From: Cyanobacteria bacterium RYN_339
Lineage (GTDB): Bacteria; Cyanobacteriota; Sericytochromatia; S15B-MN24; JAQBPE01
Assembly: GCA_028287685.1 (NCBI GenBank)
Contig: JAQBPE010000080.1
Span: 1 to 63,687, forward strand
Direction: 5' to 3'
DNA: 63,687 bases
A program made the translations under genes and the position numbers. Of the stretch, positions 16,117 through 33,827 are shown piece by piece (positions within the stretch are counted from its first letter, which is position 1; the number at the start of each line of letters is the position of its first letter). Under the pieces are notes generated by a model. That model made no database searches, was not told the origin of the DNA, and saw only the letters and a program-made list of their open reading frames with translations.

Positions 16117-16157
16117 CATAGGGGCGTCACCCCAAGCTTCCTTAAGGAGGAGGTCTC

Positions 16158-16646
16158 ATGCTAAACGTTGGCGACAAGTTCCCAAGCGTCTCGCTTGAAG
16201 GCACCCAAGGCGGCGAAGCCAAGCGCTATAACCTGGGCGATCCGTCCGGCAAAATCCGCGTGTTGGTCTTCTACCCCTTCGCCTTCACCCCCGTTTGAAC
16301 GCGGGAACTGCCGGACGCGAATTCCAAGTTATCGGAATTCAGCGCCCGCAACGCCGAGGTCTTCGGCGTTTCCATGGACAGCGTTCACACGAACCGGGCC
16401 TATGCCACTGAAATTGGCGGCCTCGGTTACCCCCTGCTCTCGGATTGGAACCCCCACGGCCACCTGGTGGATCAGCTCGGCATCCGCGTCGCGGAGAAGG
16501 GCTGTCCCAGCCGGACCACCGTGATCGTGGACAAGGATGGCGTCATTCGCGACATCCAGACGAACGCGCTCGGCGACGACCGCGACTTCGACGTCACGTT
16601 GGCGAAGGTCGCCGAGATCAACCAGGGGGAGGCGGCGGGAAGCTAG
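16158..16646 (+). CDS. AhpE-type peroxiredoxin, predicted selenoprotein (in-frame TGA = Sec47)
   Basis: ATG16158 preceded by AAGGAGG; translation MLNVGDKFPSVSLEGTQGGEAKRYNLGDPSGKIRVLVFYPFAFTPVUTRELPDANSKLSEFSARNAEVFGVSMDSVHTNRAYATEIGGLGYPLLSDWNPHGHLVDQLGIRVAEKGCPSRTTVIVDKDGVIRDIQTNALGDDRDFDVTLAKVAEINQGEAAGS; TGA at 16296-16298 sits at the peroxidatic Cys of FxPxxFTxxC. Confidence 0.87.
16301..16349 (+). other. Candidate bacterial SECIS element
   Basis: GAATTCC(16319-16325)-AAGTTATC-GGAATTC(16334-16340) perfect 7-bp stem; CGC/GCG continuation with one bulged A; optional outer GCGGG/CCCGC pairing; apical loop 27 nt after the TGA. Confidence 0.7.
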
Positions 16647-18574
16647 CTTAGCTCCAAGTAGCCCCGGCGACGCACGATCCCTCGTGCGGTTTCGCCGGGG
16701 CTCGCGCATTTCGCGCACTCCGCCACCGGCGCCGCCGTGTGGCCGCAGCCTTGGCAGATGGATAGCGGGAAGTCCAGGGCGTAAGCCCGCACGCCCGCGG
16801 CCGCGGCCGCCTGCACCCGGGCAATCGCCTGCTCGGCGGGCAACGTGGTGGGCTGCACGTCCCGGAAGACGCAGCCACCCGCGAACAGCGGCGCGTAGGC
16901 GCCCTCGATCGTCAGGCGCTCGTGCCAGGCCAGCCCGGCATCCGCCGGCAGCGACACGCCCGCACTGTAACCGGGCATCTCCGTCACGCCCTTGATCAGG
17001 CCGAACTCGCGTCGGTCCAGGCGCGCGAAGCGCTCGCTCACGCCGTCAGCATCGGCCGACTGCAGCACCAACCGCACGCCCAGCTGATCGCCCAGTTCCG
17101 CGCAGAGCGCGGCGGCCCGGCGGATGATGGTAAGGCCCTCGGCCTGGACGGACGGCGAGCCACCATGGTGTTCGCCCGCCAACACGACCAGGGCCTGCGC
17201 CAGGCCTACCAGCCCGATGGCCAGCGTTCCCTCGCGCAGCACATCGCGGATCGGGGCTTCCGGCGTCAGGGCGGCAGAGCCGTTCCAGAGGCGCTGGCCC
17301 ATCAGGAAGGGGAAGTCGGCCGCGGGCCGGGCGCCCAGGGCATCCAACCGGTGGACGAGGTGTTGGGCGGCCACCCGGATGGCGGCGTCCAGCGCCTGGT
17401 GGAAGTCGGTGGCTTCGCGGCGCGCCGTGAGGGCCAATCGGGGCAAGTTCACGCTCAGGCGGGCCACCTGTCCGACGCCGGTGCCGGCACCCACGCGGGC
17501 TTCATGCCCCGCATAAGCCACGCCTTCGCCGTCATGCACGAAGGTCACCAGCCGGCGGTCGCAGGCCAGCTCGACCGCCTGGCGCGTCAGGTCGAAGTTG
17601 GGGTCGCCCGGGTTCAGGTTCACGCCGGCACGAAGCAGGAAGACGACGTGGGGCCGCAAGGCCGCCTCGCCGCGACCCAGGCCCCGGCCGGCAGCCGTCA
17701 GCAGGGCCCGCGTGACCTCACGCCCCAGCGGGCTAACGTCGAGGCCGACCTGCAAGCTCGCGTAGGGCAAGTGGTCGCCGCCCTGAACGGACATTGTATT
17801 GAGGTTGTACACCAGGGATTCCATGGCCTGGTCCAGCTCGGCGGGCGTGGTCTGGGCCGGCAGCACCGTGGCCAGGTCGCTGTCGAAGGTGGCCAAGGTC
17901 TGGCCGCCATGGCAATCGGCCTGGGCGGCCTGGAGGATCACGGAGGTCAAGGCGGCGGCGGAGGCGGCGCGCTTCGGCGCCCGCATGAAGCCGTGGCCGC
18001 TGGCGAAACCATCTTGCAAGAGCCGCAAGTAAGGCACGACGAAGCCGTGGGGCGCCTGAGCGTAGTCCGCGAGTCCGTGCAGATGGATGGCGCCAGCCTC
18101 ATGGGCCTCCGCCATGGCCTCGGGCAGCACGCGGTTCATGTAGAACTCGCGGCTAGCGGCCACCCCGATGGCGGCGCGGCGCCAGCGGCTGCCGGCGGCG
18201 CGCGCCGGGGCCTCGTCGTTGGAGAGGATCTCCGCCACGGTGTCCATCAACTCGCTCTTGCCTTCGCGGATGCGGCTGCGGCGGGCACGGTAAAGGATGA
18301 AGGCCTTGGCCGTGCGGGCGTGCCCGTGCTCGATCAGGACCTTCTCGATCGTGTCCTGGATGGTCTCCACGGTGGGGATCTTGCCGGAGGCGTCGGTGCC
18401 TACCCGGCGCAGCACGTCCTGGGCCAACTCGTCGGCGAGGTTGTAGTCGGAACCCTGGACGGCTTGGGCGGACCGCATGATGGCGGCCACGATCTTGCTG
18501 CGGTCGAAGGCGACGATCCGTCCGTCCCGTTTTTGGATTTCCGAAATTTCCCGCGCCATGACCATGAGTGACAT
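16643..18574 (-). CDS. nrdD: Anaerobic (class III) ribonucleoside-triphosphate reductase
   Basis: N-terminal ATP-cone IQKRDGRIVAFDRSKIVAAI; C-terminal CQGCG...CAKC zinc site and RRRGYL glycyl-radical-type motif. Confidence 0.92.
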   Translation of the reverse strand: MSLMVMAREISEIQKRDGRIVAFDRSKIVAAIMRSAQAVQGSDYNLADELAQDVLRRVGTDASGKIPTVETIQDTIEKVLIEHGHARTAKAFILYRARRSRIREGKSELMDTVAEILSNDEAPARAAGSRWRRAAIGVAASREFYMNRVLPEAMAEAHEAGAIHLHGLADYAQAPHGFVVPYLRLLQDGFASGHGFMRAPKRAASAAALTSVILQAAQADCHGGQTLATFDSDLATVLPAQTTPAELDQAMESLVYNLNTMSVQGGDHLPYASLQVGLDVSPLGREVTRALLTAAGRGLGRGEAALRPHVVFLLRAGVNLNPGDPNFDLTRQAVELACDRRLVTFVHDGEGVAYAGHEARVGAGTGVGQVARLSVNLPRLALTARREATDFHQALDAAIRVAAQHLVHRLDALGARPAADFPFLMGQRLWNGSAALTPEAPIRDVLREGTLAIGLVGLAQALVVLAGEHHGGSPSVQAEGLTIIRRAAALCAELGDQLGVRLVLQSADADGVSERFARLDRREFGLIKGVTEMPGYSAGVSLPADAGLAWHERLTIEGAYAPLFAGGCVFRDVQPTTLPAEQAIARVQAAAAAGVRAYALDFPLSICQGCGHTAAPVAECAKCASPGETARGIVRRRGYLELS

Positions 18575-18693
18575 AACCTCTCTATGATGACCTGTAAGCC
18601 AATGCACCACGCGCGTCATGAGCGTGTTCGGCTGCTGAAAACCCGCGCCGCGCCCGTGATTTAAGTCATGACAAGCTGGGGTACATGTGGGAA

Positions 18694-31988: not shown

Positions 31989-33827
31989 CTAAGCGGGGAC
32001 GCCGAGCCGTCGCTTGAGCTGTTGGGCAACGGTCTTCTGCTGGAAGGCCGGCAGCTGGGGTTGGGTCTGCAGTCGGTTGATGAGGTCTTCCTGCATCTCC
32101 GGCGGCATGATCTGGAGGACCATGTCCGCGTAACCGGGGTTGAGCAGCCCCAGGATGCCGGCGGCCGTGCCCGGGCGCTCCTGCGAGAGCAGGTCGGCCA
32201 CCATCTCCGGGTCCATCTGCTCGAGGAAGCCGAACGGTCCCTCGTCGCCGCCCGCCATCGGGACGGTGCCCTGCATCTCCATGCCGGGGTAGCCACCCAG
32301 GGCGTTGGGGTCGAAGCCCTGCGGCAGGCCGGGATCGCCCAGGGAGTTGACGAGCACCTCCGTGGTGTCCTCCTTGCGGCTCGCCAGGCGAATCAGGGCG
32401 ACGATGATGATCAGGGCCAGGATCGCGCCACCCACCATCAGGATGAAGTTGAGCGAGAGGCCGCCCTCCTTCTTGCCCTTGGCCGCGGCCGTCTTCTGCT
32501 GTTCCTGCTGCTCCAGCAGCTGCTTCAGCATGTCGGTTTGGCTGGTGTCGAATGCTACCGGCTGGACCACCACCACGTCGCCTCGGCCGGCCTGGTCGGC
32601 ACCCGCGGTGGCGGATACGATCTGGGTCATGGCCGGGATGCGCTCGTTGGGCAGGCCTTGAATCAGGGCGGTGACCGATAGGCGCTTGAGCATGCCCACT
32701 TCGTCTTCCGTCAGTGTCTGGTTCATCGAGAGCTGGCCGTTGTTGATGGTTTCCTGGCGGCGTTCGGACACCTGGTTGCCGTTGGCGGGGTTGGTGATGA
32801 TGCCGTAGGTGGGCTTGCCCGGGATGTTGGCCGTGGAGCCGATCACGCCACCGCCACCGGCGCCGTTGGTGCTCTTCTCCGTGATGGTCTGCTTCGAGGT
32901 CGGGATGTTGTTCCGGTTGGCGTCCACCGGGGGCGCGTACAGCGTGGTCTTGGTCTTCTTCTGGGTGAAGTCCAGCTCCGCGGCGACGCGCACCACGGAC
33001 TTGCCGGCGCCGAAGATCTTGTCGAGCAGGCTCTGGACCTTGGTTTCGATGGCTTGCTCGCGCTCGTGCGTGAGCATCATCTGGCGGTCCAGCTCGCGGG
33101 CCGCGCGGCGGTCTTCCTGGTCACCGGCGTTGTCGGCGAAGCCATCGGACAGCAGCTTGCCGGTTTCGGCCACCACTTCGACGTTGTTCGACTTCAGACC
33201 GGGCACCGCACTCGCCACCAGGTGCTGGACACCTTCGATTTGCTGCTTCGTGAGGCTCTTGTTGGCTGCCACCTTGACCATGACGGAGGCGGTGGTGGGC
33301 TTGCGCTCTTCGGTGAAGAGCTGCTCCTCGGGCGTGTTGATCAACACGGAGGCGGCTTCGATGCCTTCCACCTTCTTGATCAGCTTGCTGAGCTCGCCGT
33401 TCAACGCGCGGTTGAAGGCCACCTTCTTCTCGAAGTCGGTGGACAGGAAGCTGTTCGGCTTGTCACCGAAGAGCTGCGAGTAGCCGACCGCTCCGTCCTT
33501 CGGTAGCGGGTTGCCCGGGTTCTGCGAAAGCTTGACGCGGGCTTCATCGGCATCGCTGGCCGAAACCGCGATGGCGGTGCCGTCCTGGATGATGTGGAAG
33601 CCGATCTTGTTCCGCTCGAGCACGGTGGCGACTTCGCCGGTGTCCTTTGGTTCCATGTTCTTGAACAGGATCACCTGGCCCGGACCTGCCACGTCGGAGA
33701 CGGAGCCGCCCCCTGACGAGGAACTGCCGCCACTCTTCATGAAGAAGAGGACGGTCATCAAGATCGCAAAGCCCAAGATGGCACCAAAGGCCGCCTTCAT
33801 GGGCGTGGACAATTCCGCGAAGTTCAA
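31989..33827 (-). CDS. fliF: Flagellar MS-ring protein FliF
   Basis: YscJ/FliF ring motifs (ASVLINTPEEQLFTEERKPTTASVMVKV), C-terminal TM and FliG-binding tail. Confidence 0.93.
   Translation of the reverse strand: MNFAELSTPMKAAFGAILGFAILMTVLFFMKSGGSSSSGGGSVSDVAGPGQVILFKNMEPKDTGEVATVLERNKIGFHIIQDGTAIAVSASDADEARVKLSQNPGNPLPKDGAVGYSQLFGDKPNSFLSTDFEKKVAFNRALNGELSKLIKKVEGIEAASVLINTPEEQLFTEERKPTTASVMVKVAANKSLTKQQIEGVQHLVASAVPGLKSNNVEVVAETGKLLSDGFADNAGDQEDRRAARELDRQMMLTHEREQAIETKVQSLLDKIFGAGKSVVRVAAELDFTQKKTKTTLYAPPVDANRNNIPTSKQTITEKSTNGAGGGGVIGSTANIPGKPTYGIITNPANGNQVSERRQETINNGQLSMNQTLTEDEVGMLKRLSVTALIQGLPNERIPAMTQIVSATAGADQAGRGDVVVVQPVAFDTSQTDMLKQLLEQQEQQKTAAAKGKKEGGLSLNFILMVGGAILALIIIVALIRLASRKEDTTEVLVNSLGDPGLPQGFDPNALGGYPGMEMQGTVPMAGGDEGPFGFLEQMDPEMVADLLSQERPGTAAGILGLLNPGYADMVLQIMPPEMQEDLINRLQTQPQLPAFQQKTVAQQLKRRLGVPA

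Follow-up and report, generated by a model that had tools for sequence, protein, structure and literature searches.

A predicted selenocysteine peroxiredoxin of the AhpE-like branch in the cyanobacterial phylum

The window considered here (the whole stretch of DNA that was analysed, 63.7 kb) very probably carries the gene of an AhpE-like selenoprotein peroxiredoxin, in which a peroxidatic selenocysteine (Sec) would be inserted at the UGA at 16296–16298 by the organism's own SelA, SelB, tRNA-Sec and SelD, probably directed by a downstream hairpin. Comparative evidence gives high confidence in the predicted decoding of codon 47 as Sec; the selenium content, catalysis and reductant of the protein are what we infer. 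Sec peroxiredoxins are already known, and the additions made here are the lineage and the broad alternation of Sec and cysteine in the AhpE-like branch, where members from different phyla have one residue or the other at the same codon. The gene also illustrates cleanly how standard annotation can cut down a catalytic protein.

The gene forms a single frame whose sole interruption is the TGA at codon 47, in the context FYPFAFTPV-TGA-TRELPD. The features of the locus are as follows.

16158..16646, + strand: predicted gene of a Sec-containing AhpE-like peroxiredoxin (162 residues, Sec at 47, start ATG 16158, stop TAG 16644–16646), from the read-through translation, Pfam, an AlphaFold model and PDB fold matches
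16144..16153, + strand: ribosome binding site AAGGAGGAGG, seen directly upstream of ATG 16158
16296..16298, + strand: codon 47 (TGA), the peroxidatic position, predicted to encode Sec (TGA in 39 of 91 family members, TGC or TGT in the other 52; TGA of PrxU in the same column)
16316..16344, + strand: candidate SECIS hairpin from RNA folds, CGCGAAUUCC, loop AAGUUAUC (16326–16333), then GGAAUUC-A-GCG
16503..16505, + strand: codon of Cys116, the only cysteine besides Sec, from translation and alignment

An earlier note on this DNA had described a continuous frame from ATG 16158 to TAG 16646 with a lone TGA, preceded by a ribosome binding site and truncated by standard gene calling. All of this can be read directly in the sequence, and the standard list of open reading frames gives just 16374..16646 in the peroxiredoxin frame. 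Among the 177 in-frame TGA codons of the window that have at least 40 open codons on either side, the one at 16296–16298 ranks first by codon usage both before and after the TGA (scores of 0.29 and 0.30; runner-up, 0.15 and 0.23), and homologues align over it without a frameshift. TGA can be read as tryptophan under other genetic codes, and a basal level of UGA read-through occurs in bacteria, which together are the grounds for supposing that the codon is read as another amino acid through a changed code or is passed by unspecific read-through of a stop. The probability of this is close to nil: every non-TGA homologue read has Cys at the position and not Trp, a tRNA-Sec is present in the genome, and reassignment would yield many in-frame TGA codons where the 63.7 kb holds one that is convincing. 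A global change of code was rejected on the last of these points; the earlier note had argued against it from the use of TGA as an ordinary stop elsewhere in the window.

The reading of codon 47 as Sec is supported by homologues, which were sought among 84,980 species genomes. Of the two closest relatives found, one comes from an Eremiobacteria MAG and the other from a Chloroflexi MAG; each has TGA at the equivalent of codon 47, and selA is present in both genomes. A further search, of 400 genomes from the phylum of the Chloroflexi hit, yielded many homologues that contain either a single TGA or no TGA at all. When codon 47 was read in 91 family members (the window included), the earlier question of whether orthologues carry TGA or TGC/TGT there received a mixed answer, 39 having the former and 52 the latter. 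In each of the 39 this TGA is the single stop of the aligned stretch, and further stops in relatives, which would have pointed to a pseudogene, are absent from that stretch in all 91. Most of these rows were chosen for having one TGA or none irrespective of its position, so that the position is informative and the ratio of 39 to 52 is not an estimate of frequency. As the non-TGA homologues carry Cys, the in-frame TGA stands where homologues have a redox Cys, that is, exactly at the peroxidatic cysteine, as had been claimed.

It is conceivable that the TGA is a true stop, either because a Cys codon was misread in sequencing or assembly or because the gene is a decaying pseudogene; the assembly is a draft, and support for a SECIS element is moderate. 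This is nonetheless very unlikely, since the frame is intact, with a ribosome binding site and coding signal on both sides of the TGA, and the genome has a complete Sec machinery. Homologues in other phyla have TGA at the same codon and 39 of 39 have no other stop, which practically excludes both a pseudogene and a sequencing error. In the 39 TGA homologues a purine invariably follows the TGA, and with few exceptions it is A; where the next residue is serine its codon is AGC, whereas in many Cys homologues a serine at that place is encoded by TCN. This preference may reflect selection on the context of the UGA.

If the UGA is decoded as Sec, the hairpin just 3′ of it would probably direct the insertion. 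Its apical loop begins 27 nt past the UGA, and the nearest Sec homologues likewise have a hairpin with an apical loop 25–28 nt past the UGA, their stems differing in sequence. Against synonymous shuffles the hairpin has p values of 0.07–0.10 in the window alone and 0.03–0.13 over three genes. At the window's spacing, hairpins are stronger in Sec genes than in Cys genes (p 0.002, an optimistic value because the rows are related), but a difference is also seen at some other spacings, and several Sec homologues have no hairpin by the measure used. A strict SECIS rule, which asks for a G among the two bases that open the apical loop, finds no hairpin in the window, where neither of these is G. The hairpin is thus a SECIS candidate with moderate support. 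A search of the peroxiredoxin locus against Rfam produced no credible RNA.

The source assembly is a draft of 6.99 Mb in 506 contigs (95% complete, contamination estimate 6.7%). The earlier note had proposed a search for selA, selB, selC and selD, and the full set was found in this one genome, as decoding of Sec would demand, on contigs other than that of the window. The tRNA-Sec (selC) scores 70.7 bits against an Rfam cut-off of 47 and has the anticodon UCA according to ARAGORN; selA and selB adjoin on contig C200 (3817–5157 and 5187–7004), and selD lies on contig C288. The separation of these contigs from the window, together with the 6.7% estimate for a draft, leaves some room for the idea that either the Sec-machinery contigs or the window is contamination and that the host of the gene does not decode Sec. 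The nearest matches speak against it and make it extremely improbable. A genome of the same family, G001, is the closest for the window-encoded Ffh (76%), for SelA (66%), SelD (65%) and tRNA-Sec (87 of 97 bases), and by bit score for SelB, so that contamination of either the window or the Sec genes is judged unlikely. Moreover, in six order or class mates (G001, G004, G005, G007, G008 and G010) selA passes its cut-off and ARAGORN recognizes a tRNA-Sec. The many other Rfam tRNA-Sec matches in relatives score far lower, below 50 bits even where they narrowly pass the cut-off; ARAGORN calls the one examined, in G009, a tRNA-Ser.

Decoding of Sec by the organism's own machinery is also consistent with further predicted selenoproteins in these relatives. 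In seven order or class mates the SelD frame contains a TGA; direct reading places it at the active-site position in L059, L061 and L065, and for L060, L062, L063 and L064 the evidence is the stop count. The SelD of the window's genome (L058) has Cys at its active site, and the Sec/Cys difference at this site is found inside one family. PrxQ-like peroxiredoxins of two order mates, G007 (L072, 1686–2081) and G001 (L073), have TGA at the peroxidatic codon, and the PrxQ-like paralogues of the window's genome (L008 and L009) have Cys.

The read-through protein matches the Pfam families AhpC-TSA (104.4 bits, cut-off 26) and Redoxin (72 bits), both above their cut-offs; it has the P-x-x-x-T-x-x-C/U motif and the distal Arg of the peroxiredoxin superfamily, and its AlphaFold model, which is confident with a mean pLDDT of 93.7, matches peroxiredoxins in a fold search of the PDB. 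In an alignment of 20 homologues Pro40, position 47 and Arg119 are invariant, and residue 44 is Thr, as here, or Ser. The best PDB match by sequence is AhpE of Mycobacterium tuberculosis (Rv2238c, PDB 1xxu and 4x0x), a one-Cys peroxiredoxin that aligns over residues 1–144, including the FxPxAFT..C and PHG motifs, and has Cys where the window has TGA. The protein also groups with actinobacterial AhpE in the tree (support 95/87); it is thus closest to the AhpE type both by sequence and by tree, although its branch is long (1.53 changes per column). The description of the remainder of the frame as an intact AhpE/Bcp-like peroxiredoxin agrees with this, AhpE being favoured by the PDB hits.

A Sec selenolate in such a protein would be held by Pro40, Thr44 and Arg119, as in the usual peroxiredoxin chemistry, and would reduce hydroperoxides and itself become a selenenic acid, which would in turn be reduced by some thiol or by Cys116. 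The role of Cys116 as resolving residue is a conjecture: it is Ile in AhpE, Cys too in most of the actinobacterial homologues aligned, and not Cys in the other Sec homologues aligned.

The positive control was PrxU of Peptoclostridium (Eubacterium) acidaminophilum, a selenoprotein known from experiment, whose TGA-encoded Sec aligns with the TGA of the window. The likeness to PrxU-type selenoproteins asserted in the earlier note holds for this Sec at the peroxidatic Cys but not for the family, which is AhpE-like (T-x-x-U): PrxU is longer, of AhpC type and 32% identical to the window protein. Membership of PrxU was rejected because the protein scores 53.7 bits with the PrxU model (NF040737), below its curated cut-off of 270. 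The PrxQ-like L072 and L073 come from the same lineage as the window and share the TGA at the peroxidatic codon, but belong to another peroxiredoxin subfamily with a branch of its own (100/99). The family described in surveys by Zhang, Gladyshev and co-workers as 'Peroxiredoxin (Prx), COG1225, TxxU' (PMC9312934, PMC1794560) has the TxxU motif in common with the window (TPVU), and the Sec/Cys interchange reported there is seen in the window's family too; that survey family is assigned to COG1225 (Bcp), and the PDB hits of the window protein favour AhpE. No relative of the peroxiredoxin was found encoded on viral contigs, and a viral origin of the gene was set aside.

The same surveys describe no Sec decoding in Cyanobacteria, whereas the window comes from the cyanobacterial phylum. 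The trait is given as absent in PMC1794560, which leaves open whether later loss or lack of sampling is responsible, and its absence is repeated in PMC9312934. A relationship to Cyanobacteriota had been supposed for this DNA, and phylum mates do include genomes bearing psbA: of 59 relatives examined, 19 have a match above the cut-off, every one outside the window's class. The phylum therefore contains photosynthetic cyanobacteria, to which the window's class, perhaps Sericytochromatia, appears to be a non-photosynthetic sister. Among 386 genomes sampled in the phylum, selA is over the cut-off in seven, all from the window's class. One Sec residue is reported in a record from Melainabacteria (PMC9529120), so Sec may have been annotated in the phylum before; a literature search for selenocysteine together with Sericytochromatia found no paper. 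The earlier note had suggested that a selenoprotein in a Cyanobacteriota-related lineage would be notable; the protein is not unique, given the many genomes with TGA-containing homologues in the phylum of the Chloroflexi hit.

With full Sec machinery and several predicted selenoproteins in the window's class, while cyanobacteria are reported without the trait, the question of its origin is now open to phylogeny. The SelA tree, with seven sequences, is too weak to separate inheritance from transfer. One possible, though rather doubtful, history is that the Sec trait was ancestral to Cyanobacteriota, was kept in part of a basal non-photosynthetic class and was lost in photosynthetic cyanobacteria and the other sampled lineages, the AhpE-like branch being a multi-phylum mosaic of Sec and Cys with repeated one-codon conversion.

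Directly upstream of the peroxiredoxin gene, on the same strand, are fliJ and fliK. The gene for NrdD (anaerobic ribonucleotide reductase; 16643–18619, − strand) is convergent with the peroxiredoxin gene and overlaps its stop by 4 bases. Elsewhere in the window, 31989–33827 (− strand) encodes a FliF-like protein with an additional match to the FliG middle domain at its C-terminus (33 bits), which suggests a FliF-FliG fusion.
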